Below, piece after piece: positions 7,637 through 30,031 of a DNA stretch of 33,601 bases (its first letter is position 1; each line of letters opens with the position of its first letter). Source of the DNA: an uncultured Clostridia bacterium (lineage in GTDB: Bacteria > Bacillota > Clostridia > Oscillospirales > Acutalibacteraceae). The translations under genes were made by a program, and so were the position numbers. Below the pieces are notes generated by a model, which searched no databases, was not told the origin of the DNA, and worked only from the letters and a program-made list of their open reading frames with translations. Where the stretch lies: assembly GCA_945874765.1 (NCBI GenBank), contig CAMCHQ010000019.1, positions 1 through 33,601 on the forward strand, given 5' to 3'.

Positions 7637-7665
7637 TTGAAATTCACTTACTTTTGTGATAAAAT
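7637..7665 (+). promoter_or_regulatory. Sigma-A-type promoter of spo0A
   Basis: TTGAAA (7637-7642), 17-base spacer, TAAAAT (7660-7665), about 32 bases ahead of the ATG at 7698. TTTTGCGAAAAAT near 7520 resembles a weak 0A box but is not close enough to call. Confidence 0.65.
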
Positions 7666-7697
7666 GTGGAAGAAATAACAAAAAGGAGTTTTTAATT

Positions 7698-8474
7698 ATG
7701 GAAAAGAAATTAAAAGTGCTCATTGCGGATAATTCAAACCATTTTGCCACAGAGTGTCAAAAAGAATTGGAAACGCAGGGCTATGAGGTTTCGGTGACGG
7801 ATAATGACGGTGCTAAGGTGCTCGATGCTGTTAAAAAGCAGAAATTTGACGTTGTTTTGATGGACGTTTTTATGGTAAATCAAGACGCTGCGGATGTGCT
7901 TGAATATTACCAAACTCATTGTGTTGAGAAGCCGATAATTGCTGTTTTGTCATCAATAGGCAGTGAAGAGCTTGAAAAGCAAATAATGTCTGCGGGCGCT
8001 GATTATTTCTTTATTAAGCCGATTTCGTCTAACCAAATTGCCAAAAGGATAACACGTCTTACAGCTTGGAGAAATGAGCATAAGTCGGAAAATCTAAACG
8101 GGAAGAGAATGTTTGATATGGATATGGACGTTGTGATTTCTGATATTATGAGGCAAATCGGTGTGCCTGCGCATATCAAGGGCTATCATTATTTAAGAAC
8201 TGCTATCAGATATTGCCTTGACGACAGTGAAATGCTCTCGTCTGTCACAAAAATTCTTTATCCGAGCGTTGCGAAAAAATACAAAACAACCGCTTCAAGA
8301 GTTGAAAGAGCAATTCGTCACGCAATAGAGGTTGCGTGGGATAGGGGAGATGTTGACGTTTTGTCCTCATATTTCGGCTATACAATTCAGTCCGAGAGAG
8401 GCAAGCCGACTAATTCCGAATTTATAGCAATGATTACAGATAAAATCAACCTTTCAATGAGAAATTCAATGTGA
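7698..8474 (+). CDS. spo0A: Spo0A-family sporulation master regulator
   Basis: 258 residues from ATG 7698, with AAGGAG upstream. The N-terminal receiver has the first acidic residue in LIADNS (Asp11), the phosphoacceptor region VVLMDVF (Asp56) and the lysine in FFIKPI (Lys107). The C-terminal effector is strongly Spo0A-like: [12 protein letters not shown] and [33 protein letters not shown], the recognition helix. The usual ADDN acidic pair is ADNS here, and the MPxxDG turn after the phosphorylated Asp is replaced by MVNQDA. The spoIVB gene normally found upstream of spo0A is absent, with element debris in its place. The protein would control entry into sporulation, but its phosphorylation chemistry may differ. 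Confidence 0.9.
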
Positions 8475-9045: not shown

Positions 9046-10758
9046 ATGAACACGCTTGTAATTGTTTTAATTGCTGTTGTTGTTCTCGGTTTAGGCTATG
9101 TCCTGTACGGCAGACATATTGCTAAAAAATGGGGTATTGACCCTAAAGCCGAAACTCCTGCCGTAAAGTACAATGACGGAAAAGACTATGTTCCGACTAA
9201 CGGCTGGACGGTATTTTCTCATCAGTTTTCATCTATCGCCGGTGCCGGCCCTGTAACAGGTGCTATTCAGGCTGCTGTATTCGGTTGGCTCCCTGTTTTG
9301 CTTTGGATACTTATCGGCGGCGTATTCTTCGGTGCCGTTACAGACTTCGGTGCTCTTTACGCTTCGGTTAAAAATCAAGGTAAATCAATGGGTATGCTTA
9401 TTGAAAAGTATATCGGTAAACTCGGCAGAAAGCTTTTCCTTATTTTCTGCTGGTTATTCTCACTTTTGATTATCGCAGTTTTTGCCGATATGGTTTCAGG
9501 AACATTTACCGCATTTGACGCAACTTCAGGTGCAAAACTTCCTGCCGCCGCAACAAACGGTTCTGCCGGTATGGTATCAATTATGTTTATGCTTTTTGCA
9601 GTTGTTTTCGGTCTTATCCAAAAGAAGTTTAACTTCTCAGGCTGGAAAGAATTTGTATTGGGCGTTGTATTTATCGTCATTTCGTTTGCAATAGGTATGA
9701 AAGTACCTATCATTCTCGGTAAAGACGGTTGGAGCTATATCGTATTTGCATATATCTTTGTTGCCGCTATTTTGCCTATTTGGCTTATGAAACAGCCTCG
9801 TGACTATATGACAACTATTATGTTTGCTTGTATGATTGCAGGTGCAGCTTTAGGTCTTATCATCGGTCATCCGACAATGAATTTACCTGTATATACAGGC
9901 TTTAAGAATGAACAGCTCGGCACAATGTTCCCGATTTTGTTCGTAACAGTTGCCTGCGGTGCTGTATCAGGATTCCATTCACTTGTATCTTCCGGTACAT
10001 CATCTAAAACAATCACCAACGAAAAGGATATGCTTAAAGTCGGTTACGGCGCAATGATTCTTGAAAGTGTTCTTGCTGTTCTTGCTCTTTGCGTTGCAGG
10101 CGCTGCCGCTAAAAACGGTGTTCCGGCCGAAGGTACTCCTTTCCAAATCTTCTCAAGAGGTGTTGCAGGCTTCTTCGAAAAGATGGGACTTTCAGTTCAT
10201 TTCTCAACCGTATTTATGACAATGTGCGTTTCTGCTCTTGCTCTTACAACTCTTGACGCAGTTGCACGTATCGGCAGAATGAGCTTCCAGGAATTGTTCA
10301 GCGTTGACGATATGGAACACGCAAGTCCTTTGAGAAAACTCTTGTGCAATACATATTTCTCAACAATCGTTACTCTTGCCTGCGGTTTCGTTCTTACCAA
10401 GATCGGTTATCAGACAATTTGGCCTCTCTTCGGTTCGGCAAACCAACTTTTAAGCGCACTTGTTCTTATCACACTTTGCGTATTCCTTAAAGTAACAGGC
10501 AGAAGCAACAAGATGCTTTTCCCACCTATGATTATTATGCTTTGCGTAACATTTACAGCTCTTATCCAGCGTGTAATAGGTCTTGTTAAATCACTTGCAG
10601 CAGGACAGGAAATTTTCGCAAGCGTAATTCAGCTTGTAGTTGCAGTTTTGCTTATTGTTCTTGCTCTTATCATTGTTGTTAATTCATTCAAGAGCTATGT
10701 CAGAAGCAAAAAGGGCAGTGAGGTTGAAGAAACCGAACAAGCTACTGTAAAGGAATAA
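9046..10758 (+). CDS. cstA: CstA-family carbon starvation/peptide transporter
   Basis: 570 residues with about 15 hydrophobic membrane spans. CstA hallmarks include KDYVPTNGWTVFSHQFSSIAG near residues 45-65, GPVTGAIQAAVFGWLPVLLW near 67-86, and GVFFGAVTDFGALYASV. Family members import small peptides or pyruvate into the cytoplasm under carbon or amino-acid limitation; which substrate applies here cannot be read from sequence. Start 9046 has AGAGGT upstream. The T-box in the leader ties expression to uncharged tRNA, most likely leucine, which favours a peptide-uptake role. A terminator follows 23 bases after the stop, so it is monocistronic. Confidence 0.92.
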   Translation: MNTLVIVLIAVVVLGLGYVLYGRHIAKKWGIDPKAETPAVKYNDGKDYVPTNGWTVFSHQFSSIAGAGPVTGAIQAAVFGWLPVLLWILIGGVFFGAVTDFGALYASVKNQGKSMGMLIEKYIGKLGRKLFLIFCWLFSLLIIAVFADMVSGTFTAFDATSGAKLPAAATNGSAGMVSIMFMLFAVVFGLIQKKFNFSGWKEFVLGVVFIVISFAIGMKVPIILGKDGWSYIVFAYIFVAAILPIWLMKQPRDYMTTIMFACMIAGAALGLIIGHPTMNLPVYTGFKNEQLGTMFPILFVTVACGAVSGFHSLVSSGTSSKTITNEKDMLKVGYGAMILESVLAVLALCVAGAAAKNGVPAEGTPFQIFSRGVAGFFEKMGLSVHFSTVFMTMCVSALALTTLDAVARIGRMSFQELFSVDDMEHASPLRKLLCNTYFSTIVTLACGFVLTKIGYQTIWPLFGSANQLLSALVLITLCVFLKVTGRSNKMLFPPMIIMLCVTFTALIQRVIGLVKSLAAGQEIFASVIQLVVAVLLIVLALIIVVNSFKSYVRSKKGSEVEETEQATVKE

Positions 10759-10780: not shown

Positions 10781-10811
10781 AAAGCAGGACGGATTTCCGC
10801 CCTGCTTTTTT
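10781..10811 (+). terminator. cstA terminator
   Basis: AAAGCAGGACGGA, short loop, TCCGCCCTGCTTT, then T-run. Strong GC-rich hairpin directly after cstA. Confidence 0.85.
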
Positions 10812-10912: not shown

Positions 10913-13105
10913 TTAAATTTCATACCACTTGATTTCGTTCGATTCAAGATGTAAATCAAATGACGAACCGTCGCCGATATAAACTGTTGTATCCTGCGGC
11001 TCGTAGGTGTTGTTTACTACGCAATATTTGCCGTTTTTAACATAAGCGTGAACCTCAACATTGTAGTTTGTTGAATACCACTTGTGAAGCTCGCTTTCGG
11101 AATTTGAACTCCAAAGAACCGCTCTGTAAAGTACACGGCTGTTTTCAAAACTGTAAGGGAGACCGCTGATATAAACGCCTCTGCCCTTGCCGAATTCCTT
11201 AACTGCCATTTGCACCTCTTCTGCGTGACGAACTGCAAAAGGAAGCGGTGTGGCATTTTGAACAAGAACGGTTGTGCCGTCAAGCGCAACAATGTTTTTC
11301 TTGCCCTCGCCGAAGTCAACGTTGCCGCCGTTTGTATCTTCAAGAATAAAGTGGTCACGGTGTTCCTCTGTATTGTAGCGACGGGTGTTTAAAGTAAGTC
11401 CGTTTTCTCTTTCAACACCTAAAATATCGTCAAGCTGGAAGAACTTGCCCTGCCATTGATGAGCAGCAGGTTCACCGACACCGATAAAGCCGCCGCCGTT
11501 ATAAACAAATTTTTTAATCGCTGTGATGATTTCCTCGTCAATCCAATATTCACCGCCGCTTTGCGCTGTGTCTGCGTCGCCGACATTGATGATAACGTCG
11601 AAATTATCAAGGAAATTTTTGTCGTTTTTGATATCGTCAAAGCTGATGAATGAAACGTCAAACGGAGCACCGCTTAAAGCTTCGATAACGCCGAAATATG
11701 AGTAGTTTTGCCTGTAGTAAAGACCGTGGTGCACCATATGGTTAGACCAGGAACGCATTTTGCCCCAGCAGTTGAGAACGGCAACTTTCTTTACGCAATA
11801 CGGTGTGACGCCCTGAATGTTGTCATAAAGAGTTCTGAACTCGTCACAAACAGACTTGATATATTCAACAAAATCCGGGAATTTAAGAGCAAGTTTAAGA
11901 TATCCGCCGTAGCCGATACGCTGAATAGGACTTCTTAAAATAGCACGTCTTGCAGTTACCCAGTTGACCTTTGCCTCTTTGATAGGGTCGCCGCCTTCGC
12001 AGAAAACGTCAGGGAAGAAGTAAGGTAAAAATCTGCCCTCTGTGTACTTAACGTTTTTAATATCGCTGAAAAGACGGAGTGTTGCGCCGTTGCCTACACT
12101 GCCTACAACAGCGTCAAGACCGATTGAGGCAAACTCGTCCATAAACGGCTCCATTCCAATCCAATGGTCGCCCATAAACATCATAGCTTCCTTGCCGTAT
12201 TCGTGAACAATGTCAACCATTTCCTTGGCAAGTGCGGCAACTTCTCTTCTTTGGAAAGCCTGAAAATCCTTAAATTCTTTTGACGGAATCCTGTAGGTGT
12301 TGTTCATATATCCCTGGTCAATGATGAATTCGGGACGGAATTTGTAGCCGACTTCTTTTTCAAACTGCTCAAGAATATACGGGCTGACGGATGCGCTGTA
12401 GCCAAACCAATCAACAAATTTTTCCCTTGCAAGCTCGTCGAAAATCAATGTAAACTGATGGAAAAATGTTGTAAATCTTACAACGTCAACGTAATCGTGA
12501 GTGTCAAGGAATTTGCGAAGTCTTTCAAGTGAATGTGCTCTTGTTTTCGGCTGACGAACGTCAAATGTAATCTGCGGTTCAACATCCCAATTGTTTACTA
12601 CTGCGTTATACATATGTACCGGGTCCCACATAATGTAAGCTAAGAAGCTGACTGTGTATTCGTGGAAAGGAGTGCAGTTTTTAATTGTTACATTTCCGCT
12701 TTCTTCGTCATAATCCCAAGAAGCAACGTCTACAATCTCGCCTGTGGTTCTGTCAATAACTTCCCACCATCTTGTGATGTCGTCACGGTTGTTTACCTTT
12801 AACATATCGGGATAAAGATTATCCATAAGATGAATTGAAAGGGTGTCGCCTGTAGCGGTGTGAAATTTAGTCATAATATACATTTGCTGAATTTCATCGG
12901 GATTAGCCTTTGCCCAAGCGTTGTCCTTTCTTGTTGTGTAATATGTTGCGTAAACTTTAGCGCCCGTGTCACGAAGCTCCTGCGGAAATTCGGTTCCGTC
13001 ACAGTCACGTATTGCGTCTGCGCCCCATTCGTCCATAATTTCAAGGGTTTCTTTAACAACGTCCGTATCTGTAGGAATTGTTACTCTGCCTTTGCTTTTT
13101 GCCAT
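10913..13105 (-). CDS. GH112 1,3-beta-galactosyl-N-acetylhexosamine phosphorylase
   Basis: 730 residues, the usual length for GH112. Hallmarks are GADAIRDCDGTEFP near residues 28-41, VVRFTTFFHQFTLIFDE near 208-223, FIIDQGYMNNTYRIPS and MMFMGDHWIGMEPF, whose Asp313 coincides with the general acid reported for the bifidobacterial enzyme. GH112 enzymes phosphorolyse lacto-N-biose or galacto-N-biose to galactose-1-phosphate plus the N-acetylhexosamine, in the cytoplasm; a few act on galactosyl-rhamnose instead. There is no signal peptide. The gene starts 15 bases after the beta-helix gene with GGAGG, forming an operon. Substrate choice is inferred from family and context. Confidence 0.93.
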   Translation of the reverse strand: MAKSKGRVTIPTDTDVVKETLEIMDEWGADAIRDCDGTEFPQELRDTGAKVYATYYTTRKDNAWAKANPDEIQQMYIMTKFHTATGDTLSIHLMDNLYPDMLKVNNRDDITRWWEVIDRTTGEIVDVASWDYDEESGNVTIKNCTPFHEYTVSFLAYIMWDPVHMYNAVVNNWDVEPQITFDVRQPKTRAHSLERLRKFLDTHDYVDVVRFTTFFHQFTLIFDELAREKFVDWFGYSASVSPYILEQFEKEVGYKFRPEFIIDQGYMNNTYRIPSKEFKDFQAFQRREVAALAKEMVDIVHEYGKEAMMFMGDHWIGMEPFMDEFASIGLDAVVGSVGNGATLRLFSDIKNVKYTEGRFLPYFFPDVFCEGGDPIKEAKVNWVTARRAILRSPIQRIGYGGYLKLALKFPDFVEYIKSVCDEFRTLYDNIQGVTPYCVKKVAVLNCWGKMRSWSNHMVHHGLYYRQNYSYFGVIEALSGAPFDVSFISFDDIKNDKNFLDNFDVIINVGDADTAQSGGEYWIDEEIITAIKKFVYNGGGFIGVGEPAAHQWQGKFFQLDDILGVERENGLTLNTRRYNTEEHRDHFILEDTNGGNVDFGEGKKNIVALDGTTVLVQNATPLPFAVRHAEEVQMAVKEFGKGRGVYISGLPYSFENSRVLYRAVLWSSNSESELHKWYSTNYNVEVHAYVKNGKYCVVNNTYEPQDTTVYIGDGSSFDLHLESNEIKWYEI

Positions 13106-13120
13106 ATTTTACCTCCGAAT

Positions 13121-14413
13121 TTATTTTTCGATTTTGATTATTTTGTTATCCTTGAGCGTCATTTTGCCGTGCATTCTCTTTCTTACAAAAGGAACACCGT
13201 CTCTGACATAAAACGTATTGTTTTTAACTAAAGCGTCGGGATTGCTCGCCGGCGTCATTGTTCCGCTTAAATCATCGAAGCTTAGATTGTTTTCAAACGT
13301 GTTGTGCACCGCTTCCTGCAAGCAAAACATCATACAGCCGCCCTCGTTAAGACGTGAGTAGTTATATTCGTATTTTGTGCCGTCGCCCGAGTCTGCGTCA
13401 TAAGCCATACCGTCTTGATTAAGTTTTGTATCAACAACGTCATTGTATCTTAAAAGCGCATTTTTGCACTTCCACGGCCAAATCGCAGCGGCAACCTTGC
13501 CGGCACGTTTTTGTGGATATTTATAATATCTGTCATTCATCTCCGTAGCGCACGAATCGGCAACATTATGCTCAACCAAAGGCTCTAACGCATACATAGG
13601 AGTTATAGCGTCACCACCGGCAAATTTAACATAATTGTTTTTAAGCGTAATGTTTTCATTGCCGTATTTTTTGAATGTTTCCTCATTCAGCTCTTTAGTC
13701 GCAAAATCCTTGTGGCGATATGAATAACCGACTGCAATTCCCCAACGGCTGACATTTTTAACAAAGCAGTTTTCAACCGTTACGCCGTCATATCTTGCAA
13801 CGCCTGTTTTTCCCTCGTCGTCGGGCTTGAAGCAGGTCATATAAATACCGCCGTTGTTCATATGCTTGTTGTAAACATTGCCGTTTACATCGTGAATAAA
13901 GAGGTTATCAAATGTAATTGAATGAAGCGTACCTCTGTTTTTCGCAACTGCGGCAACACCTGTTCTGTCCGTTTTATCGGCGGCACAGTAACTTTCCATA
14001 TCTTTAAATTCTTCTTTGTTTGTTATCTCAATGTTTTTAATAAGAATATTCTCAACGTCATAAAGAAGAATTGATGACGAAACGTTGCCTTTATAAACGT
14101 GACCGCTGTAGTCAAGTTCGTTGCCGTAGTCCTGATACCATATACCTTTGCCGTTTGTGTTGATTTTTGGTAAATCGCCGTCATCACCGTAGGCTGAAAT
14201 TTCAATTTTGTCACCGTTTATGTCACCGCAATTTTTCAAATGTAAAAATTCGTTTTCAAAAACAGAACCGTTTAAAAGAAATACCTTATCGCCGGGCATA
14301 AGTTCAAGCTCATTGATTTTATTAAGGCTTTTGAACGCAGTGTTTTCGCTTAAACCGTCGTTATCGTCATTGCCGTTAATCGAACTTACGAAGTATATTG
14401 TTGATTTCTTCAT
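13121..14413 (-). CDS. Cytoplasmic right-handed beta-helix protein, possible GH136-like glycosidase
   Basis: 430 residues beginning with YFVSSINGNDDNDGLSENTAF, the usual N-terminal cap of pectate-lyase-like beta-helix glycosidases, followed by many Asn-rich rungs (VENILIKNIEITN, NALLRYNDVVD). NQDGMAYDADSGDGTKYEYN contains two Asp seven residues apart, the spacing reported for the catalytic pair of GH136 lacto-N-biosidases. There is no signal peptide, whereas characterised GH136 enzymes are secreted, so this one would act on imported oligosaccharide. Co-transcription with GH112 suggests that it releases lacto-N-biose or a related unit. Start 14413 has GGGAGG and overlaps the upstream small gene by 38 bases. 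GH136 membership is inference; other beta-helix families remain possible. Confidence 0.6.
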   Translation of the reverse strand: MKKSTIYFVSSINGNDDNDGLSENTAFKSLNKINELELMPGDKVFLLNGSVFENEFLHLKNCGDINGDKIEISAYGDDGDLPKINTNGKGIWYQDYGNELDYSGHVYKGNVSSSILLYDVENILIKNIEITNKEEFKDMESYCAADKTDRTGVAAVAKNRGTLHSITFDNLFIHDVNGNVYNKHMNNGGIYMTCFKPDDEGKTGVARYDGVTVENCFVKNVSRWGIAVGYSYRHKDFATKELNEETFKKYGNENITLKNNYVKFAGGDAITPMYALEPLVEHNVADSCATEMNDRYYKYPQKRAGKVAAAIWPWKCKNALLRYNDVVDTKLNQDGMAYDADSGDGTKYEYNYSRLNEGGCMMFCLQEAVHNTFENNLSFDDLSGTMTPASNPDALVKNNTFYVRDGVPFVRKRMHGKMTLKDNKIIKIEK

Positions 14414-14828
14414 CGTACTGCGCCTCCCTTATCTTTTTATAAATAACCGTTTTAACCTCAAAAAAGAAAAAGCGGTCGTTGTTGTACCTTGTAAAAAGGT
14501 CCTTGTTTTCCTTATAGTAAGCTTTCATCTGCTTTCTTGTAATTTCAGTGAAATTATATGCCTTTTTAATCTTTTCGCTTTCGCCTGCAAAGTCGAGTTT
14601 TAATCTTGTAAGCTCGAAATTGAGATATGCGGGATATGAAAAATGAGTAAGACCGTACACGGTTTCACCCTTTTCAAGCTGTGCTTTTCTCTTTTCGTTT
14701 TCTTTGTCGCATCTCTTTTTTACACCGTCAAGGCTGTCATCATCAATAAGCCCGAGTGTTTTTGAAAATGCAAGGCAGGCAAGAGCATACTTTTTTTCTT
14801 CTTCGTTTTCAAAAAGAAATGTATTCAT
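14376..14828 (-). CDS. Small all-helical protein coupled to the beta-helix gene
   Basis: 150 residues, highly charged and predicted helical, without signal peptide or membrane span. Sequence such as NFTEITRKQMKAYYKENKDLFTRY and IREAQYDEEINNILRK recalls the SurA/trigger-factor-like helical domains of foldases. Characterised GH136 enzymes depend on a helical partner (LnbY in bifidobacteria, or a separate or fused helical N-terminal part in Clostridia), so a dedicated folding subunit for the overlapping beta-helix gene is the attractive reading. The 38-base overlap implies translational coupling and balanced amounts. It is first in the operon; AAGGAGA precedes ATG 14828. I cannot name the family with certainty. 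Confidence 0.55.
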   Translation of the reverse strand: MNTFLFENEEEKKYALACLAFSKTLGLIDDDSLDGVKKRCDKENEKRKAQLEKGETVYGLTHFSYPAYLNFELTRLKLDFAGESEKIKKAYNFTEITRKQMKAYYKENKDLFTRYNNDRFFFFEVKTVIYKKIREAQYDEEINNILRKFD

Positions 14829-15028: not shown

Positions 15029-16168
15029 ATGAAATTTATTCATCTTTCCGATTTGCATATAGGCAAGCGTGTAAACGAGTTTTCAATGCTTGAAGAACAA
15101 CGTTATATTTTGCTTAAAATTCTTGAAATAATAGAAGAAGAAAAGCCCGACGCAGTGCTTATTGCAGGTGACGTTTACGATAAATCTCAGCCGTCGGGTG
15201 AAGCGGTTAAACTGCTTGACGAGTTTATTTTCAGGCTCTCAAATATGCCTCTTTCCGCTTTTATTATCAGCGGTAATCACGACAGCGCCGAGCGCCTTGC
15301 ATTTGGGTCGAGAATTATGGAAAAGGCCAATATTTTTATATCTCCCGTCTATGACGGAAATGTTCAAAAGCATACACTTGATGACGAGTGGGGAGAGGTG
15401 AATATATTTATGCTCCCGTTTATTAAACCCGTTAATGTAAGGCAGGCTTTTCCCGAAGAGGAAATAAATTCTTATACGGATGCAATAACAACGGCAATTT
15501 CAAAAATGGACGTTGACGAAAGCAAGAGAAATATTATTTTATCCCACCAATTCGTTACCGGTGCAATTAAGTGCGACAGCGAGGAAATCAGTCTCGGCGG
15601 TACGGATAATGTGGATGTAAGCGCTTATGATAAGTTTGATTATGTCGCTTTGGGTCATATTCATTCTCCGCAAAAACTTATACGGGATACTGTCAGGTAT
15701 TCGGGCACTCCGCTTAAATATTCTTTTTCCGAATGCAGGCATAAAAAGAGTGTTACCGTTGTTGAAATGGGTGAAAAAGGCGACGTTCAAATCAGGCTTA
15801 TTCCGCTTGTTCCAAGGCGTGATTTGGTTGAAATTGAGGGCAAATACGATGAACTTATGAGTAAAGATTTTTATGATAAACTAAATCATAAAGAGGACTA
15901 CTATCATATCACCCTGACTGATGAAAACGACGTTGTCGACGCTCTTTCAAAACTGAGATGCGTTTATACAAATATTATGAAACTCGACTATAACAACACC
16001 CGAACGAGAAATGCGCTTACTGTCGAAAAGGCAGAAAATGTTAAGGATAAATCCCCGTTAGAAATTTTTGAGGAACTTTACTGTAAGCAAAACGGCAGTG
16101 AAATGGGCGAAGAACAGACACGGTATATGCAAAACGTTATTGAAAATATTTGGGAGGGTGAGCAATGA
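15029..16168 (+). CDS. sbcD: SbcD nuclease subunit
   Basis: 379 residues. Calcineurin-like phosphoesterase motifs appear in order: DLHIG (Asp8, His10), GDVYD (Asp48), GNHDS (Asn83-His84-Asp85), ILSHQF and ALGHIHSPQ. These coordinate two Mn ions in the Mre11-type nuclease that cuts hairpins and protein-blocked DNA ends. Length is normal. The stop overlaps the sbcC start by four bases (ATGA), so the two subunits are coupled. A hairpin-processing nuclease is relevant in a window rich in palindromic repeats, though the neighbourhood is probably coincidence. Confidence 0.95.
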   Translation: MKFIHLSDLHIGKRVNEFSMLEEQRYILLKILEIIEEEKPDAVLIAGDVYDKSQPSGEAVKLLDEFIFRLSNMPLSAFIISGNHDSAERLAFGSRIMEKANIFISPVYDGNVQKHTLDDEWGEVNIFMLPFIKPVNVRQAFPEEEINSYTDAITTAISKMDVDESKRNIILSHQFVTGAIKCDSEEISLGGTDNVDVSAYDKFDYVALGHIHSPQKLIRDTVRYSGTPLKYSFSECRHKKSVTVVEMGEKGDVQIRLIPLVPRRDLVEIEGKYDELMSKDFYDKLNHKEDYYHITLTDENDVVDALSKLRCVYTNIMKLDYNNTRTRNALTVEKAENVKDKSPLEIFEELYCKQNGSEMGEEQTRYMQNVIENIWEGEQ

Positions 16169-18927
16169 GACCTTTAAAAATCACAATGTCGGCATTCGGC
16201 CCGTATGCTAAAGAAGTCACTCTTGATATGCAAAAACTCGGCAAAAGCGGAATATATCTTATCACGGGTGATACCGGCGCAGGCAAGACTACGATTTTTG
16301 ACGCAATTTCCTATGCTCTTTACGGTGAAGCCAGCGGAAATTACAGGGAAAATACAACTCTTCGTTCAAAATATGCAAGTGCAGACACACCCACTTTTGT
16401 AGAACTTGAATTTGAATATAATAACGAGATTTATAAAATTAACCGCAACCCCGAATATTTAAGACCGACTAAAAGGGGTGAGGGATTTACCAAGCAGGGT
16501 GCAAATGCCGAACTTATTATGCCCGACGGTACGGTTATAACCAAAATCAAAGAGGTAACGGCAAAGGTTGAGGAGATAATCGGCGTTGATAAAAACCAAT
16601 TTTCTCAAATTGCAATGATTGCGCAGGGGGATTTCAGGAAACTTCTCAACTGCGAAACAAGCGAACGTGGCAAAATATTCAGAAAGATTTTCAAAACTGA
16701 GCCTTATCATAATATTGAGCTTAAACTTTCAAGCCTTTTTAATGAGTTGAGGCGAAACCGTGATGAGGAAAAGAGGGGGATTGAGCAGTATATCGATCAG
16801 CTTACGTGCTCAAAAAACGATACGCTTTCTCTTGAACTTGAAAAGGCGAAAAAAGGCGAGATGCTTTGCGATGACGTTATAAAACTTGCAAATGACATTA
16901 TCGATAAGGATAAGTCTGAATATGACAAGGTTCAATCAAGTCTTGGAGATTTAAACGAAGAAATCAAGAAAATAAATTCAAGTATTGACCTTTATGAAAA
17001 TCAAGAGCAAACGAAGAAAAAATACGCCGAAGCCTGTGCAAATTTTGAAAAGCTGAAAGCAAAGCGTGACGAGTGTGAAAAAGCGTACGCTTCAGCCGAG
17101 GCGCAAAGGGGAAAACTTGACGGATTAACAAATAAAATCAATCTGATAAATTCAAAAATGCCAAAGTTTGACGAACTTAAAAATCTTGAAAAAGATATTA
17201 AAGAAAAGACGTTAAGCGTAGAAAAATGCAGTAAATCACTTGAATATCTGACGCAGGAAAAAGAAAGACTTGAAAAGGAAATTGATGAAAAATCAAAGAC
17301 TTTTGAAAAGGTAAAGGGTGCAGACGTACTTGTTCAAAAACTGTCAACTCAAAAGGTTGAATTAAATGATAAATCGCAGTCACTTAAAGAACTTAAAGCC
17401 GAGATTGACAGGTGCATAGATGAAAAAAACAAGCTGAAAAAGGCGCAGGATTTTGCAAAGTCTGCTTTGGATGAATATAACGCTTTTGAAAATGAATATA
17501 ACAAAAAATATACAGCATTTTTCAACGAGCAGGCAGGAATAATCGCAGATGAATTAAAAGACGGCGAGCCTTGTCCTGTTTGCGGTTCTACCTCTCATCC
17601 CGCTTTGGCGAAAAAAAGCGAAAATGCACCTAGTCAGGCGGACGTCGATAATGCGCAGAAAATTGCTAAAAAAGCGCAGGATAAAGCAAACGAGGCAAGG
17701 GATAATGCGTCGGCGCTCAATTCAAAAGTCGCTGAAATTGCCGCTAATGTTAAGCTGAAAGCAAAAAAGCTTTTCGGCACCGACGCAGATATTCGTGAAA
17801 ATTACAACAGCCATATTAATGCTTTGAAAAAGGAGTATCAAGATACTGTATCTTCGCTTGAAAAAGCAAACGAAAATCTTGCCGTTTATCAAAAATTAGA
17901 TGAGGAAATTCCGAAACTTAGGGAAAAGCAGAAATCTCTTTCAGATGAAATATCAACGCTCAACACCCAAAAAGCGAGTGACAAATCGGCTTTGAAAGAA
18001 AATACAAAACGCTTAACCTCTCTTAAAAGTGAGCTTGATTTTGAAAATCGTGACCTTGCAATTGATAAGATAAAAGAATATACAGCTCTTTCAAATGATA
18101 TCAAAGATACCATTGATAAAAGCAAAAAGGCTTTTGATGATATTAAATCAAGATTCGATACATTAAACGGCACAAAATCAAGCCTTGAAAATGCGCTTAA
18201 AGAGTTTAAGGAAATAGATATTGCCATTCTTAAAGAAAAATCTAAAAAGTTTGATGAGGATAAAACAGAACTGGACGAAAAGGCAAAAGTTCTTTATTCC
18301 CGCATTGATAACAATAAGTTGCTTTACGATAATATTTGTGAAAAAAGCGATACTTTAAACGAATACGATAAGAAATTTGTTTGGCTTAAATCACTCAGCG
18401 AAACGGCGAACGGCGATATATCCGGCAAGGAAAAAATCACGCTTGAAACTTTCGTTCAAATGACTTATTTTGATTCCATTATAAGAAAAGCCAATATCAG
18501 ACTTTTGACTATGAGTGACGGTCAATATGAGCTGGTGCGCAGAAGTGACGCCGAAACGCTGAAGAAAAACGAGGGCTTGGCTCTTGATGTTATCGACCAT
18601 TTCAATGCCTCTTCAAGAAGCGTCAGCACGCTCTCGGGCGGTGAATCGTTTATGGCTTCTCTCTGCCTTGCACTCGGTCTTTCGGATGAAATTCAGTCCT
18701 CAAACGGCGGAATTAAACTTGATACAATGTTTGTTGACGAGGGCTTCGGCTCTCTTGACGGTGAGGCGCTTGACCGTGCCCTTTCCGCTTTAACTTCTCT
18801 TTCTCAGGGCAACCGCCTTGTGGGTATAATTTCTCACGTTGACGCATTGAGCGACAGGATAGACAATAAAATCGTTATCACTAAGGACAGAATAAGCGGC
18901 AGTCACGCACAAATTGTTTGCGAATAA
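16165..18927 (+). CDS. sbcC: SbcC ATPase subunit
   Basis: 920 residues. The N-terminal Walker A is GDTGAGKTT near residues 35-43. Two very long coiled coils flank a zinc hook CPVC near residue 470. The C-terminal half has the ABC signature STLSGGESF near 820 and Walker B with FVDEGFGSLD near 855. This is the Rad50-type partner of SbcD; ATP binding opens and closes the complex and admits DNA ends to the nuclease. Slightly shorter than E. coli SbcC (1048) because the coiled coils are shorter. Coupled to sbcD by the ATGA overlap. Confidence 0.96.
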   Translation: MRPLKITMSAFGPYAKEVTLDMQKLGKSGIYLITGDTGAGKTTIFDAISYALYGEASGNYRENTTLRSKYASADTPTFVELEFEYNNEIYKINRNPEYLRPTKRGEGFTKQGANAELIMPDGTVITKIKEVTAKVEEIIGVDKNQFSQIAMIAQGDFRKLLNCETSERGKIFRKIFKTEPYHNIELKLSSLFNELRRNRDEEKRGIEQYIDQLTCSKNDTLSLELEKAKKGEMLCDDVIKLANDIIDKDKSEYDKVQSSLGDLNEEIKKINSSIDLYENQEQTKKKYAEACANFEKLKAKRDECEKAYASAEAQRGKLDGLTNKINLINSKMPKFDELKNLEKDIKEKTLSVEKCSKSLEYLTQEKERLEKEIDEKSKTFEKVKGADVLVQKLSTQKVELNDKSQSLKELKAEIDRCIDEKNKLKKAQDFAKSALDEYNAFENEYNKKYTAFFNEQAGIIADELKDGEPCPVCGSTSHPALAKKSENAPSQADVDNAQKIAKKAQDKANEARDNASALNSKVAEIAANVKLKAKKLFGTDADIRENYNSHINALKKEYQDTVSSLEKANENLAVYQKLDEEIPKLREKQKSLSDEISTLNTQKASDKSALKENTKRLTSLKSELDFENRDLAIDKIKEYTALSNDIKDTIDKSKKAFDDIKSRFDTLNGTKSSLENALKEFKEIDIAILKEKSKKFDEDKTELDEKAKVLYSRIDNNKLLYDNICEKSDTLNEYDKKFVWLKSLSETANGDISGKEKITLETFVQMTYFDSIIRKANIRLLTMSDGQYELVRRSDAETLKKNEGLALDVIDHFNASSRSVSTLSGGESFMASLCLALGLSDEIQSSNGGIKLDTMFVDEGFGSLDGEALDRALSALTSLSQGNRLVGIISHVDALSDRIDNKIVITKDRISGSHAQIVCE

Positions 18928-20351: not shown

Positions 20352-21701
20352 TTATGCGTTTGTTTCGATATTTCTAAGCGTTGTGTGCGTGGTATAAATT
20401 CCGTTTTCACCGCTTGCGTTGTAGTCACCGCCGTGCTTTTGGGCAATTTCTTTAATTATTTTTGTGCCGTTGCCGTGACCTTTTCTTATTTCCTTTTTCT
20501 TGTTTAAAAACGGATTTTTCGTATCAATTCTGATTTGCTTGTCGCTTACGGTTATCGAAAAATCAATTTCTTTTTCATCACATTCCTTTGTTGCGTTGAT
20601 TGCATTGTCGCAAAGGTTTAAAAGTATTCTTGCAAGGTCGATATCTTGAATTTTAACGTCATTTTGAATATCGATATCAATGTTAAAGCTAATTTTTTCC
20701 GCCTTTGCTTCTTTTGATTTTATGTAAAATACGGTGTTTATAATGTCGTTGTTGCAAAGCCTTAAACCGTCAATGTTTGCAAGCTCGTTGTTTGACTGGT
20801 TTAAAATCTCAAGCGCCTGTTCGGTTTTGCCCGATAAAATAAGCTCTTTAGCCGTCAGGTGAATATTTTTGATGTCGTGCTTTACGTGCCTTAAACTTTC
20901 TCTTTCGGCTTTGATTAATTCAATGTTTTGATATTCAATCTCGTTTTTAGTCGATAATACCAAAAGTTCGTCATTTTTTTCATCTGTTTTCCTGATTGCG
21001 TCAACAATGAATATGCTTGCAAAATCGATTATCGCAACTACTGCAAACGTAATGCAAATCAAAATGTTTTGATAAAGCAAATTTGTACTGCTTTTCTCCC
21101 AAAATGCTTTTTGCGTTGCGCTGATAATGATTGGCAAAATATTTGTGATAGGGAATATGTAAAAATAAAGATATTTTGCTTTGAAATCTTTTGCCTTTAT
21201 TTTGAAAAGCCTTAGGAAAAACGATACCGTATATCCTCCGACAAGATATGTCAATGCATTTGAAAGGGTAAGTGCTATTGTCGATTTGTATATCGGTAAA
21301 TTGTCAATTAAATTTTGATATCCCAATTTGCTCCAAATAAAGCTTAAAAATGCGCTTGTGCCAATCCAAATAAGAATATAAATTACGAATATTAAAAGCG
21401 AACCGGTAATTTTGTTTTTCGTTTTCGTATCAATGCTTATTGCAAAAATAACAAATATAAATAAAATCAACAGCGCATAGCTTAATAATGTGAAAATTCC
21501 GTTTTGCTCAGCCAATATTTTGACATATTGATTGATTATGTTCCAAGCCGATACGGATATAAGCGTTGTGATAAGCGTTATAAATGAATTGAATTTGTCT
21601 TTATAAAGCGTGTGAATAATTGTAAAAAGTGCAAAGCCCTTGCAAGTTGAAAGAATTAAAATCCAGATTGAAAAATGGCTTAAATCTATTATTTGTCCCA
21701 T
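20352..21701 (-). CDS. AgrC-like sensor histidine kinase
   Basis: About 449 residues from ATG 21701 (AAAGG lies somewhat far upstream; a TTG at 21722 would add seven residues). Six or seven membrane spans fill roughly residues 10-220. These are followed by the dimerisation/phosphoacceptor helix ESLRHVKHDIKNIHL with its His, then the GHKL ATPase with N box NLCDNAINATKE and G box GHGNGTKII. This is the peptide-sensing AgrC/ComD class that signals to a LytTR regulator, encoded 12 bases upstream. No agrB or agrD peptide-maturation gene is nearby, so the ligand is unknown; the membrane domain may sense another signal. Confidence 0.9.
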   Translation of the reverse strand: MGQIIDLSHFSIWILILSTCKGFALFTIIHTLYKDKFNSFITLITTLISVSAWNIINQYVKILAEQNGIFTLLSYALLILFIFVIFAISIDTKTKNKITGSLLIFVIYILIWIGTSAFLSFIWSKLGYQNLIDNLPIYKSTIALTLSNALTYLVGGYTVSFFLRLFKIKAKDFKAKYLYFYIFPITNILPIIISATQKAFWEKSSTNLLYQNILICITFAVVAIIDFASIFIVDAIRKTDEKNDELLVLSTKNEIEYQNIELIKAERESLRHVKHDIKNIHLTAKELILSGKTEQALEILNQSNNELANIDGLRLCNNDIINTVFYIKSKEAKAEKISFNIDIDIQNDVKIQDIDLARILLNLCDNAINATKECDEKEIDFSITVSDKQIRIDTKNPFLNKKKEIRKGHGNGTKIIKEIAQKHGGDYNASGENGIYTTHTTLRNIETNA

Positions 21702-21734
21702 TTTATTACCGTTGCCTTTCAAACGAAATGTTTT

Positions 21735-22436
21735 TTATATTTCTAAATAGTTTTTGTATTTATCGGTGAGAGATTTGTAATTACTTCTTGAAATTGTAAT
21801 CTGCTCACCGCTTGATAATATGTATTTGTGCCATTTAAAGCCTAATACATAATCAAAATTCACCGCAAAACTTCGACTGCATTGCTGAAAATTAATACCG
21901 CATTTTGAAATTAAATCGGAAAATTTCATTGCCGCTTCAATGCTTTTGCCGTCTTTGAAATATAAAACACTTGATTTATTTTGCGCCTCAATATGTGTCA
22001 CGTCGCTTAAATCGATTGTTTCGTTTATTTTGTTGTGCTCAATTATGATTTTCCTCTTTCGCCGTATTCCGAGATTTTGAATACACTTTTTAAGCGCTTT
22101 TGAAAGTGCTTCTGCGTCCGACCTCGTTTTGTCAAGATAATAAGTCGGTGAGATTTTTGAAATATTGTAAATTTCACCGGGATACGAAGTGAGTATAACA
22201 AGTTCAAACGTAATCGCTATGTCCTTTTCGGCAAATTCGTTTATAGTGTTGATGTCGCCGAGTAAAACGTCAAGAAATAATATGTCTATCTTTTTCGAAT
22301 TTTTCTTGATTTCGTCAATCGTGCTTGTAAGAGTAATTGTGTAATCAACCCCGAATTCTTCGCATTTTTCCTTTAAATCATTATTTAATTTTTGCCTGAA
22401 TATATTGTCATCATCACATATGAAAATATTAATCAT
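21735..22436 (-). CDS. AgrA-like LytTR response regulator
   Basis: 233 residues. Receiver domain: acidic pair FICDDDN near residues 6-11, phosphoacceptor LFLDVLLGD (Asp56) and a conserved lysine in YYLDKTRSD. LytTR DNA-binding domain from about residue 128: KIIIEHNKINETIDLSDVTHIEAQ, CSRSFAVNFDYV and ITISRSNYKSLTDKY. LytTR proteins bind pairs of 9-bp direct repeats about 21 bases apart; exactly such a pair lies upstream of this gene at 22515-22546, so autoregulation is likely. Start 22436 has GAGGAGAAAG upstream. In one operon with the kinase. Confidence 0.93.
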   Translation of the reverse strand: MINIFICDDDNIFRQKLNNDLKEKCEEFGVDYTITLTSTIDEIKKNSKKIDILFLDVLLGDINTINEFAEKDIAITFELVILTSYPGEIYNISKISPTYYLDKTRSDAEALSKALKKCIQNLGIRRKRKIIIEHNKINETIDLSDVTHIEAQNKSSVLYFKDGKSIEAAMKFSDLISKCGINFQQCSRSFAVNFDYVLGFKWHKYILSSGEQITISRSNYKSLTDKYKNYLEI

Positions 22437-25577: not shown

Positions 25578-27149
25578 ATGGGCGAAAAACGCACCTATAC
25601 GGGTAAAGAACTCGGCGGATATCTTGTGGGTATGTTCGGTCAGAACTTGATTTACAATATCGTTGCCACAGGTCTTTACTTCTACTTTCAAAACGTAATC
25701 TGCCTGCCTGCTATGGCACTCGGCTGGATTATGACAATCGCAAGAATCTGGGACGCTGTCAATGATCCTATGATGGGTACAATCGTTGATAAGACTAAGA
25801 CTAAATGGGGTAAGTGCAGACCTTATCTTATTATTTTTCCGGGTATTATCGGCGTAGTAACAATTTTAACATTCATTAACGGCAACTATGCAGCAGCAAG
25901 TTCAACTGCTCAAAAGGTACTTATTGTAGCTTGGGCAGGTATTTCGTATATTGCTTGGGGTATGTGCTTCACTGTTTGCGATATTCCTCTTTGGGGTATC
26001 ACCTCTCTTATGACAGAGGATGAAAACGACAGAGGTAAAATCCTCGGTCTTGCACGTATGGTAGCAGGTGTCGGCGGTATCAGCGTTCTCGTTGTTCAAA
26101 TTGCGCAGGCTCTCGGCTCTGCTTTTGTTAATAAGATTGATAAAAATGCTGCCGATTATGACACACTCGTTCAAAAGGCAAACCAAAAAGGCTTTATCGT
26201 AACAGTTATTATTATGACTGTTATTGCATCAGTTCTTTTTGAATTTGCAGGTCTCTTCACAAGAGAAAGAGTTGAAAAGAGTGAGAAGAGCTATACATTT
26301 AAGGAAAACTTCCAGATTATGTTCAGAAATAAGCCTTTCAGACAGATTCTTATTTCAGGCATTTTGAGAAGCCCTATTCAGCTTCTTATGATTGTTGCAA
26401 TGACACTCGTTACATACTATTATGCTAACGGTAATATTATGAATATCCTTAAAACAGACGCTTCGGGTAAGATTACAGGTATCGATTTCCAAATTCTTAT
26501 CGGTCTCGGCTGTGTTGCAGTAGGTCTTTTTGTCGGCCAGTTCGTTGCAATGGGCGTTACTCCTCTTATTATTAAGAAGGTTGAAAAGAAAAAGCTTTAT
26601 AACATTTATTCAATCGCAGGTGCCGTTCCTTTCGCACTTATCTTTGTATTCTTCAAAGTATCGGGCGGCGACTTGACTTCTACTTTATGGTCAATCGTTA
26701 TCGGTGTATGTATGCTCGTTGCAAGTGCTTCATTCGGCGGTATCAACGTACTTCAGTCAGTAATGATTGCCGACTGCGTAGACTATGAGGAATATCATAA
26801 CGGCGTTCGTACAGACGGTGTATTCTTCTCGGGTCAGAGCTTTATCACTAAGCTTGCAGCAGGTATTTCAACTATCATCTCATCAGCAGTTTATGCCGCA
26901 GTAGGCTATAGCGGTGCTAATGTCGATAAACTTAACCGTGCTATTGAAAAAGGCGCAAGCTTCATTACATATGACGGCGGCACCGGTGCAGGTAAATATG
27001 CAGAGGCTATGTTCTTCCTCATTTCTATTCCGCCTGCAATCGGTATGCTCCTTTCGGCTATCCCTACTCTTAAATATGCAATGACAGATAAGGAACACGA
27101 TGAAATCCTTAAGTCACTTGTTGATAAGAGAAATGCACAAACAAAGTAA
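25578..27149 (+). CDS. GPH-family sugar:cation symporter
   Basis: 523 residues with twelve membrane spans. GPH (glycoside-pentoside-hexuronide) hallmarks: IWDAVNDPMMGTIVDKTKTKWGKCRPYL near residues 56-83, and the central ADCVDYEEYHNGVRTDG near 396-412. Transporters of this family import disaccharides or glycosides with Na+ or H+. The next gene on the strand is a GH2 beta-mannosidase, so beta-mannosides or mannose-containing disaccharides are the likely cargo. Start 25578 has AAGGGAG upstream. A terminator follows, so the two are separate transcription units. Confidence 0.92.
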   Translation: MGEKRTYTGKELGGYLVGMFGQNLIYNIVATGLYFYFQNVICLPAMALGWIMTIARIWDAVNDPMMGTIVDKTKTKWGKCRPYLIIFPGIIGVVTILTFINGNYAAASSTAQKVLIVAWAGISYIAWGMCFTVCDIPLWGITSLMTEDENDRGKILGLARMVAGVGGISVLVVQIAQALGSAFVNKIDKNAADYDTLVQKANQKGFIVTVIIMTVIASVLFEFAGLFTRERVEKSEKSYTFKENFQIMFRNKPFRQILISGILRSPIQLLMIVAMTLVTYYYANGNIMNILKTDASGKITGIDFQILIGLGCVAVGLFVGQFVAMGVTPLIIKKVEKKKLYNIYSIAGAVPFALIFVFFKVSGGDLTSTLWSIVIGVCMLVASASFGGINVLQSVMIADCVDYEEYHNGVRTDGVFFSGQSFITKLAAGISTIISSAVYAAVGYSGANVDKLNRAIEKGASFITYDGGTGAGKYAEAMFFLISIPPAIGMLLSAIPTLKYAMTDKEHDEILKSLVDKRNAQTK

Positions 27150-27164
27150 ATACATTGCTTTTAT

Positions 27165-27198
27165 AAGGTGTACCCTCGCTTGAGAGTGCACCTTTTGT
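27165..27198 (+). terminator. Terminator of the GPH symporter gene
   Basis: AAGGTG(T)AC(C)CTC pairs with GAG(A)GT-GCACCTT around GCTT, then TTTTGTTTT. Confidence 0.75.
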
Positions 27199-27220
27199 TT
27201 TGAATATGAATTTATACCCG

Positions 27221-27343
27221 TGACAAAATGTCATAAGTGGTGACAAAATGTCATAGGGGTAGTGACAAAATGTCATAGGGGTACTGACAAAATGTCATAG
27301 GGGGTACTGACAAAATGTCATAGGGGGTACTGACAAAATGTCA
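27221..27343. repeat. Six-copy tandem array of TGACAAAATGTCA palindromes
   Basis: Six exact copies of TGACA-AAA-TGTCA start at 27221, 27241, 27263, 27285, 27308 and 27331, spaced 20, 22, 22, 23 and 23 bases. The linkers grow from TAAGTGG to TAGGGGGTAC. Every copy is palindromic and the spacing is near two helical turns. It lies between the GPH and beta-mannosidase genes, about 70 bases upstream of the mannosidase promoter. The array may be an operator or iteron set, or the remnant of a repeat-bearing gene. The gap 27344-27412 is very AT-rich. Confidence 0.85.
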
Positions 27344-27412
27344 CCCAATAATAAAGATAATAATAAATATATATTAAATAATATAATAAAGGGGACTAAC
27401 CCTTATTATTCA

Positions 27413-27441
27413 TTGATTAATAAATTTATATGATGTATAAT
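27413..27441 (+). promoter_or_regulatory. Promoter of the beta-mannosidase gene
   Basis: TTGATT (27413-27418), 17-base spacer, TATAAT (27436-27441), 34 bases upstream of the ATG at 27476. Confidence 0.75.
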
Positions 27442-27475
27442 AAAATCAACGTACTTAATTTTTAAGGGGAAAATT

Positions 27476-30031
27476 ATGATTAAAACATTAAACGGAGATT
27501 GGCTTTTTAAGTCAACTGACCAAAACGAATGGAAAAAGGCGACTGTTCCCGGCTGCAATTTTCTTGATTTAATGAGAAACGGCGATATACCCGACCCTTT
27601 CATTTCTACATATGAAAAAGATGTGCGTTTTGTAGGGGAAAAGGATTGGGAATATAAAAGGTGTTTTGAAATTGATGAGAGTGAACTTGAATGTGACGAT
27701 ATTCTTTTAAATTGCAAAATGCTTGATACAATTTGCGAGGTGTATATTAATTCACGTCTTTTATTTGTGGGGGATAACTGCTTTGTCGGCTATTCAAAAA
27801 GTGTAAAATCGCTTTTAAAAGAGGGTGAAAATGAAATCAGAATTGTTTTTAAATCACCTGTAAATTATGTGTCGGATAAGTATAAAAAATGCCTTACTCC
27901 GATGAATTCAAACGGTCAAAACGGTATTGTCCATATCCGCAAGCCTCAATCGCATTTCGGATGGGACTGGGGCCCCGTATTGCCGTCTTCGGGTATTACC
28001 AAGGATATTGAGCTTCAATTCGTAAATGCCGTTAAAATCGACTGCTTCACGGTTACGCAGAGACTTGAAAACGGTAAGGCTTATGTGAATGTTAAGGCTG
28101 ATTTAAGCGAATACGGAGATTATAAATATAAGTGCGAACTCAGTATTACCTCACCGAACGGAGATACTTTGATTTCAAATGAGAAAAGTGCCGAATTTGT
28201 TATCGATAATCCCGAACTTTGGTGGACATATGAACTTTCAGGCAAGAAAAAGCAACCGCTTTATACAGTATCTGTTTTTCTTCAGTATAAGGGCAAAATA
28301 GTTGACGTTAAAAGTAAGAAAATCGGATTGAGAACGGTTGAACTTAACAGGCAGCGTGATAAATACGGCAGGAATTTCCAATTTGTTTTAAACGGTGTTC
28401 CTCTCTTTATCAAAGGCTCTAACTATATTCCGCCCGACAGTTTTATTACCCGATTTGATAAGAAAAAACTTGATTATATGCTCGACGCCGTTCAGTTTTC
28501 CAATATGAATATGATTAGAGTGTGGGGCGGCGGATATTATGAAAGCGACGAATTTTATAATGCGTGTGACGAACGTGGTATTCTCGTTTGGCAGGATTTT
28601 CAATTTGCCTGTCAGGCATATCCGTTTTTTGACGATGAATTTCTTGAAAATGTAAAAAGGGAAGTTGCGTATAACGTCAAAAGACTTTGTCATCACCCGT
28701 CTCTTGCCGTTTGGAACGGTAATAATGAGATTGAGGATATGCACGCCGCTTGGGCTTATATGACTAAGTATGTCGACTGGACCGAAAAGTTTTTCTATCA
28801 TATTCTTGAGGACGAAATCAGGAAATATGATAAATCGACGCCTTATACACCTACTTCTCCCGTAGGCGAAAAGCATAACTACGGTGTAGGAAGCGATAAT
28901 GTAGGCGATACTCACTTGTGGGCTGTTTGGCACGGTCTTAAACCTATGAATTATTACCGCAAGCGCCTTACACGTTTTTGCAGTGAATTCGGTTTTGAAA
29001 GTCTGCCCGATATGAAAACTATTGACATTTTTGCCGAGCATAAGGGTAATTATTCGCTTGACGATAAAGTGTTTAATGCTCATCAAAAGTGTGAAAACGG
29101 TAACGATAAAATGGTCTATTACGTTGCCTCTCGCTTTAATTTGCCTAAGAAATTTAAAAATATGGTTTATCTTTCTCAAGTTACGCAAAACGAGTGTATT
29201 GCCGACGCTACGGAGCACTGGAGAAGAAATAAGGGCAGATGTAACGGCTCAATGTATTGGCAGTTAAACGATTGCTGGGGCGTTTGCTCTTGGTCGAGTA
29301 TCGACTATTACGGTAATTACAAGGCGCTTCAATACGGCGCAAGGCATTTTAACGCACCTTTGAGTGTTTCGGTTGAGGACACAAAAGACTATGTCAAAAT
29401 TTATGTGCTTAACGATTTGAATACTTCGCAGGATATAGCCGTATCTTATGAAATTTTTGATTTTTTGAGCGGTACAAAAGAAGCCGACGAAAAGCATATT
29501 ACAATTGACGGGATTAAAAACGAATGTGTTTTTGACCTTGATGTAAACGAGCTTTCAAAAGTCTATGATTTAAAGCGTACCGGCATTGCGGTAAGACTTA
29601 TCCAAAACGGCGAAGTTTTACAGCAAAAGACAGTCCTTTTTGATAAGGAAAAAAATCTTTCGCTTCCTAAAGCAAGCCTTAAAACGAGGATTGAGATAGG
29701 GGAAAGCGAACTTAAAATCACAGTCAAAAGCGACGCATTTGCCCGCCTTGTCAGGCTTGAAAGCAATAAATCCGTTTTGCCTTTCAGTGATAATTTCTTC
29801 GACCTTTTGCCAAACGAGAGCAGGAGTGTGACAATGCAAAAGGATGAAAATATGACCTTGCGTGAGCTTGCAGAGAGTATATCAGTTTACAGTCTTTCCG
29901 ATGTAAGATTTAATAATGATAAAATTTATACCCTTTTAAAGCAGGCAAAGGTTTTTCTTTCTCCCGTCAATATTTCAAATGCGATTTATCACGGCAAACT
30001 TGCAAAAGATGTCGAATTAAGTGACAAATAG
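27476..30031 (+). CDS. GH2 beta-mannosidase
   Basis: 851 residues, family-typical length, with no signal peptide, so cytoplasmic. The N-terminal sugar-binding domain opens with LNGDWLFKSTDQNEWKKATVPG. The central barrel shows NMNMIRVWGGGYYESDEFYNACDERGILVWQDFQFAC, the acid/base glutamate in WNGNNEIED near residue 419, the nucleophile glutamate in FCSEFGFESLP near 504, and YWQLNDCWGVCSWSSIDYYG. The enzyme removes beta-linked mannose from oligosaccharide ends such as N-glycan core or mannan fragments. AAGGGGA precedes ATG 27476. Downstream of a GPH symporter, it makes a simple uptake-and-cleavage module. Confidence 0.94.
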   Translation: MIKTLNGDWLFKSTDQNEWKKATVPGCNFLDLMRNGDIPDPFISTYEKDVRFVGEKDWEYKRCFEIDESELECDDILLNCKMLDTICEVYINSRLLFVGDNCFVGYSKSVKSLLKEGENEIRIVFKSPVNYVSDKYKKCLTPMNSNGQNGIVHIRKPQSHFGWDWGPVLPSSGITKDIELQFVNAVKIDCFTVTQRLENGKAYVNVKADLSEYGDYKYKCELSITSPNGDTLISNEKSAEFVIDNPELWWTYELSGKKKQPLYTVSVFLQYKGKIVDVKSKKIGLRTVELNRQRDKYGRNFQFVLNGVPLFIKGSNYIPPDSFITRFDKKKLDYMLDAVQFSNMNMIRVWGGGYYESDEFYNACDERGILVWQDFQFACQAYPFFDDEFLENVKREVAYNVKRLCHHPSLAVWNGNNEIEDMHAAWAYMTKYVDWTEKFFYHILEDEIRKYDKSTPYTPTSPVGEKHNYGVGSDNVGDTHLWAVWHGLKPMNYYRKRLTRFCSEFGFESLPDMKTIDIFAEHKGNYSLDDKVFNAHQKCENGNDKMVYYVASRFNLPKKFKNMVYLSQVTQNECIADATEHWRRNKGRCNGSMYWQLNDCWGVCSWSSIDYYGNYKALQYGARHFNAPLSVSVEDTKDYVKIYVLNDLNTSQDIAVSYEIFDFLSGTKEADEKHITIDGIKNECVFDLDVNELSKVYDLKRTGIAVRLIQNGEVLQQKTVLFDKEKNLSLPKASLKTRIEIGESELKITVKSDAFARLVRLESNKSVLPFSDNFFDLLPNESRSVTMQKDENMTLRELAESISVYSLSDVRFNNDKIYTLLKQAKVFLSPVNISNAIYHGKLAKDVELSDK

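Follow-up and report, generated by a model that had tools for sequence, protein, structure and literature searches.

What does a compact unit of three genes, for a helical protein, a beta-helix protein and a GH112 phosphorylase, accomplish in a bacterium when no transporter is encoded beside it? This question is raised by contig CAMCHQ010000019.1 of an uncultured Clostridia bacterium, analysed over 33,601 nucleotides from its position 1 (hereafter the window). The comparisons described below indicate that the unit very probably encodes a cytoplasmic two-subunit GH136 lacto-N-biosidase together with GH112. By open reading frame (ORF) calls, all three genes lie on the minus strand: GH136 subunit I, a helical partner of the LnbY or RhLnb136I type (150 residues), at 14376-14828; GH136 subunit II, the beta-helix lacto-N-biosidase catalytic domain (430 residues), at 13121-14413; and GH112 1,3-beta-galactosyl-N-acetylhexosamine phosphorylase (730 residues) at 10913-13105. 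The tight packing described in an earlier sequence-only reading of this DNA was confirmed, with an overlap of 38 bases between the two subunit genes (14376-14413) and a gap of 15 bases between the subunit II and GH112 genes. The start codon of subunit II is located within the subunit I gene, with a purine-rich stretch ahead of it, and translation of subunit II may be coupled to that of subunit I.

The two GH136 subunits

By phmmer search against solved structures, subunit II was found to match ErLnb136 of Eubacterium ramulus (6kqs) over residues 6-425 with an E-value of 1.5e-168, followed by 7v6m (8.7e-123), 5gqc (4.6e-94), which we take to be Bifidobacterium longum LnbX, 24mr (3.8e-93) and 7v6i (7.3e-85). 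The NCBIfam model LnbX also matched (E 9.5e-95), though the 319 bits obtained fall short of its cut-off of 2500, the model having 1498 positions, and Pfam gave Beta_helix alone, below threshold. In ErLnb136, W548 stacks on galactose, D568 is the acid/base and D575 the nucleophile (Pichler et al. 2020, PMC7335108; cited throughout from excerpts of the paper). Chain numbers in the 6kqs alignment rows exceed the ErLnb136 numbers of that paper by two, and once this shift was applied, D568, D575 and W548 aligned with D334, D341 and W314 of subunit II. Both Asp residues belong to the motif QDGMAYDAD, and all three positions are invariant across a 14-row alignment that includes the window row. The assignment of the beta-helix protein to GH136, made in the sequence-only reading from this Asp pair, is thus borne out by homology. 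Two loops of ErLnb136, 330-341 and 520-543, are linked to specificity and both are shorter in the fucosyl-tolerant RiLea/b136 (PMC7335108). Since both aligned without gaps in subunit II, its substrate would be unfucosylated, lacto-N-tetraose or similar.

Subunit I matched the N-terminal part of 6kqs with an E-value of 2.7e-11 by phmmer, and with 1.4e-24 when a 15-row profile including the window sequence was used. The NCBIfam model ChapLctbsdLnbY was also matched (E 4.4e-11), at 43 bits and hence below its cut-off of 400. Y115 of subunit I corresponds to Y145 in the partner domain of ErLnb136, a residue close to the active site (PMC7335108), and is invariant in the 15-row alignment, in which the partner subunits of relatives are 48-65% identical to that of the window. 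Homology to the ErLnb136 partner domain and retention of this tyrosine uphold the proposal that the 150-residue protein is the GH136 partner. Weak Pfam matches of subunit I were all sub-threshold, including a peptidyl-prolyl isomerase domain at 0.035; ErLnb136I is itself described as weakly resembling a peptidyl-prolyl isomerase (PMC7335108). The catalytic domain, partner domain and key residues of ErLnb136 (PDB 6KQS/6KQT) are therefore all represented in the window. In E. ramulus, however, they form one fused chain and GH42 replaces GH112 in the locus (PMC7335108), whereas the window encodes separate subunits and GH112.

GH112, cellular location and known systems

The GH112 protein matched Pfam PF09508, PF17385 and PF17386, all above cut-off, and the NCBIfam equivalog TIGR02336 with 952 bits against a cut-off of 560. 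GH112 requires phosphate and yields galactose-1-phosphate, which is used in the cytoplasm. To look for an export segment, mean hydropathy was computed in 12-residue stretches over residues 1-60. The peak was 0.25 for GH112, 0.93 for the beta-helix protein and 1.58 for the helical partner, while three binding proteins encoded elsewhere in this genome scored 2.51, 3.11 and 3.32; by this measure, none of the three cassette proteins carries an export segment. Subunit II opens directly with the catalytic domain, its residue 6 corresponding to chain residue 246 of 6kqs. In contrast, a locus of the secreted kind, that of Clostridium sp. D53t1_180928_C8 (L033), shows by eye hydrophobic N-terminal segments on both the partner and the GH136 protein. 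The lack of a signal peptide on the beta-helix protein was therefore correctly noted before, and an intracellular unit of the lacto-N-biosidase type is well supported by homology with respect to function, partner role and location.

In such a unit, subunit I would pack onto the beta-helix of subunit II and supply a tyrosine for the active site. Acting on lacto-N-tetraose or related type-1 chains, as in sugars of milk or mucin type, the two together would cleave the reducing-side bond of N-acetylglucosamine (GlcNAc) to release lacto-N-biose, which GH112 would phosphorolyse into galactose-1-phosphate and GlcNAc, the intact oligosaccharide being imported by a transporter encoded outside the cassette. 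For released lactose, the genome offers five GH2 matches (PF02836) that could serve, one of which (L085 1441-4536) looks LacZ-like by eye; no GH42 was found in this genome. Far from the cassette, on contig C4, lies a gene of the GH95 family (L057 2530-4611) with PF22124 above cut-off and no evident signal peptide. Its product could remove fucose ahead of the GH136 step.

The sequence-only reading took an intracellular unit to be a departure from the known, secreted systems. This claim fails, because Pichler et al. (2020) report the same arrangement in Roseburia hominis: RhLnb136I and RhLnb136II are described as lacking a predicted signal peptide or membrane domain and as active only upon co-expression, and degradation of lacto-N-tetraose was inferred to be intracellular, together with RhGLnbp112 of the same locus (PMC7335108, in excerpt). 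Compared by this published description, the window resembles R. hominis in having two separate GH136 subunits without export signal and a GH112. The human milk oligosaccharide locus of Roseburia is defined by GH112, GH136, an ABC transporter and a regulator (PMC7335108); the window cassette has GH112 and GH136 and lacks the other two. While the R. hominis locus encodes regulators and an ABC transporter whose binding protein binds lacto-N-biose (PMC7335108), none is linked to the cassette of the window, and the absence of an importer is one point in which this system differs from its R. hominis model. LnbX and LnbY of B. longum likewise combine a GH136 catalytic domain with a partner, described as required for activity in B. 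longum. Unlike those of the window, the B. longum proteins carry a signal peptide or membrane domains, and their locus is described as being without further carbohydrate-active enzyme genes (PMC7335108).

Conservation and surroundings of the cassette

A contig scan yielded 52 loci, for 14 of which the flanks were read (L003, L004, L005, L009, L011, L015, L019, L020, L021, L023, L026, L027, L031 and L033). L004, L015 and L031 were read as whole loci and the others as ORFs longer than 200 or 250 residues, over a span that started at about 4-6.5 kb of the locus and reached about 17 kb or its end. In 13 of these 14 loci, GH112 directly follows GH136 subunit II, the exception being L033. Both subunits were found in 15 loci (L003, L004, L005, L009, L011, L015, L019, L020, L026, L027, L031, L064, L065, L067 and L071, with L065 a duplicate of L015), the partner being 149-164 residues long and overlapping subunit II by 32-50 bases with mechanically chosen start codons. 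The subunit II sequences of L021 and L023 recur in other loci (L067, L071), and there the partner was seen. As the gene order and the overlapping partner gene recur in other genomes, the arrangement is more than chance.

The same three genes, with partners of 149-151 residues and overlaps of 41 bases, are present in Blautia sp. MSJ-9 and B. massiliensis GD8 (L026, L027). In both, an ABC binding protein and two permeases (the latter recognised by eye) are encoded directly upstream, whereas no importer is linked in the window; the binding protein of L026 was confirmed by Pfam, and that of L027 had no Pfam match at 0.001. A sugar-type ABC importer was absent from the read flanks of the window and of 11 other GH112-bearing loci; by eye, a TrpX-type ABC operon was recognised 4 kb past GH112 in L004, and a BioY-like gene lies upstream in L011. 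From record titles and identities rather than from a tree, we read these 11 importer-less loci as one lineage. It includes the isolate Eubacterium coprostanoligenes ATCC 51222 (L015), whose subunit II is 73% identical to that of the window. Among open-licence papers, in which passing mentions are possible, none was found to tie E. coprostanoligenes to GH136. Repetitive, very long ORFs, open at the locus start, lie upstream of the cassette in L015 (4-5706, 1900 residues) and L004 (18-5339, 1773 residues).

A subunit II match was detected in 8 of 40 genomes searched, a set that is not independent of the 52 loci (the proteins of G005 and L015 are identical). Six of the eight, including the genome of the window, belong to the 25 genomes of the genus, and one of these six (G013) has two GH136/GH112 cassettes, on contigs C11 and C12 (L064, L071); the two matches outside the genus are weak (E 2.9e-12 and 6.6e-6). 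GH112 was found in five genomes, all within the genus and all with subunit II, and in none of the 40 alone. In the sixth genus member, G009, the subunit II match begins 11 bases from the contig end on the side expected for GH112, which would fall past that end.

In the window, the cassette is flanked by CstA (9046-10758), on the opposite strand and convergent with GH112, and by SbcD (15029-16168), divergent from subunit I, both identified by Pfam; a gene that looks SbcC-like by eye follows SbcD (16165-18927). The view that the operon lacks a transporter therefore holds, and marks a real difference from the R. hominis locus. No ABC transporter was found among the 18 window proteins scanned with Pfam, and no transcriptional regulator adjoins the cassette. 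Spo0A (7656-8474) is 2.4 kb away, past CstA. At a distance of 5.5 kb, the minus strand encodes a GHKL sensor-type protein and, beside it, a LytTR-domain protein (20352-22436), with no known link to the cassette. The only sugar transporter recognised among the scanned proteins is a GPH symporter (25578-27149), and the gene after it encodes a GH2 protein whose domains are of mannosidase type; the two, together spanning 25578-30031, are perhaps a pair for mannoside use. About 100 bases past GH112, a consensus scan gave a possible intrinsic terminator with a 12-pair stem on the minus strand (10781-10808), one of 7 such sites in the whole stretch against 4.0 +/- 2.5 in shuffles.

Substrate uptake and alternative explanations

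Because the compact unit has no linked importer, the uptake step is its missing piece. The genome of the window (2.27 Mb in 31 contigs, 99.14% complete) gave three matches to SBP_bac_1 and two to SBP_bac_8, among which are two true binding proteins. One, in L057, belongs by eye to an operon of the spermidine/putrescine type. The other, in L058, adjoins genes that look by eye like those of a 4-alpha-glucanotransferase, a phosphorylase and GH3. Its nearest solved relative is maltose-binding protein (E 1.8e-35), and the NCBIfam matches to MalE (4.4e-9) and to the galacto-oligosaccharide binder GanS (2.8e-7) are both far below cut-off, while comparison with the cassette binding protein of Blautia MSJ-9 gave 24 bits over 31 residues, no clear likeness. 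From these matches, its sugar range may be wider. A third SBP_bac_1 match, on contig C10 and containing stops, overlies by eye a phosphate operon of the PstSCAB type. As the L027 binding protein has no Pfam match, searches for binding proteins alone could miss that kind; importers of the L027 type should be covered by the permease search. By eye, the eight BPD_transp_1 matches fell into the phosphate, polyamine and maltose-like operons and two of amino-acid type, and the four BPD_transp_2 matches into one nucleoside-type (Bmp) operon and two of TrpX type.

Against the one sugar-type ABC importer found, the genome encodes about 18 proteins of GPH type, counted from 20 MFS_2 rows after allowing for one doubled frame and one weak match in an MFS_1 protein. 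Mannose-class EIID of the phosphotransferase system (PTS) was not found in this genome, the search covering that PTS class and, of the MFS families, MFS_2. No GH136- or GH112-type gene was seen beside the GPH genes of L075, L085 and L086 among ORFs longer than 250 or 300 residues (L086 in part); one of these GPH genes is next to a gene that looks GH31-like by eye, and another is separated from the GH95 gene by about 8 kb. An MFS gene in L019 (14820-16109), 1.3 kb past GH112, has a homologue in the genome of the window (L075 4809-6185, 43%). As an importer candidate this homologue was rejected as too weak, the link being a single case with an opposite-strand gene in between. LntP of Bifidobacterium breve, considered as an MFS-type lacto-N-tetraose permease that would be a precedent for symporter uptake, was dropped, as lntP1 and lntP2 are described as ABC permeases (PMC5144078, in excerpt); the same paper mentions the galactoside symporter lacS for lactose and galacto-oligosaccharides. 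No single candidate could be singled out among the GPH-type symporters and the ABC importer found. Entry may be through the maltose-like ABC importer or a secondary transporter, the latter being in our view more likely. More tentatively, and with somewhat less than even confidence, we propose that the genus takes up intact sugars of the lacto-N-tetraose type by a symporter of the GPH or MFS type whose gene is located elsewhere in the genome, in contrast to the ABC importers used in R. hominis and probably in Blautia.

Several points weigh against a cytoplasmic lacto-N-biosidase coupled with GH112. The NCBIfam matches of both GH136 subunits are far under the cut-offs. Subunit I, at 150 residues, does not reach the length of ErLnb136I (residues 7-224): its end falls about 45 residues earlier, and the alignment over its first helices is weak (2.8 and 7.8 bits). 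The cassette has no linked importer, and of the ABC importers found in this genome none seems dedicated to sugars of this kind. The GH136 might also differ in specificity, giving a fucosylated Lewis-type product as RiLea/b136 does or releasing a fragment of other host glycans, with GH112 working on the product after trimming. Specificity within GH136 does vary, as the example of RiLea/b136 indicates (PMC7335108), and the GH95-family gene without evident signal peptide, located elsewhere in this genome, has a counterpart adjoining the cassette in Blautia L027. Both specificity loops, however, are of ErLnb136 length, and the top match is ErLnb136 itself, a lacto-N-tetraose enzyme (PMC7335108); we regard a different specificity as unlikely.

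The lack of a linked importer would also suit two further explanations, both of which we consider very improbable, the first marginally more so. If non-classical export let the enzyme act outside the cell, no oligosaccharide importer would be needed, but one for lacto-N-biose would still be required; in addition, the phosphate requirement and the product of GH112 fit the cell interior, and the secreted Clostridium relative has hydrophobic segments on both proteins. The cassette could instead be an acquired relic with no working substrate supply, as its patchy occurrence in 6 of 25 genus genomes might suggest. Against this, all three frames are open, the catalytic residues are invariant, the partner subunits of relatives are 48-65% identical to that of the window, and the same importer-less order is present in other genomes, including that of the isolate E. 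coprostanoligenes ATCC 51222.

The cytoplasmic pathway of two-subunit GH136 and GH112 would thus extend from Roseburia to E. coprostanoligenes-like Clostridia, including a cultured strain, where the three genes are tightly grouped and no importer is linked to them. If a symporter does carry such a tetrasaccharide, the known role of secondary transporters in feeding on host glycans would be wider.

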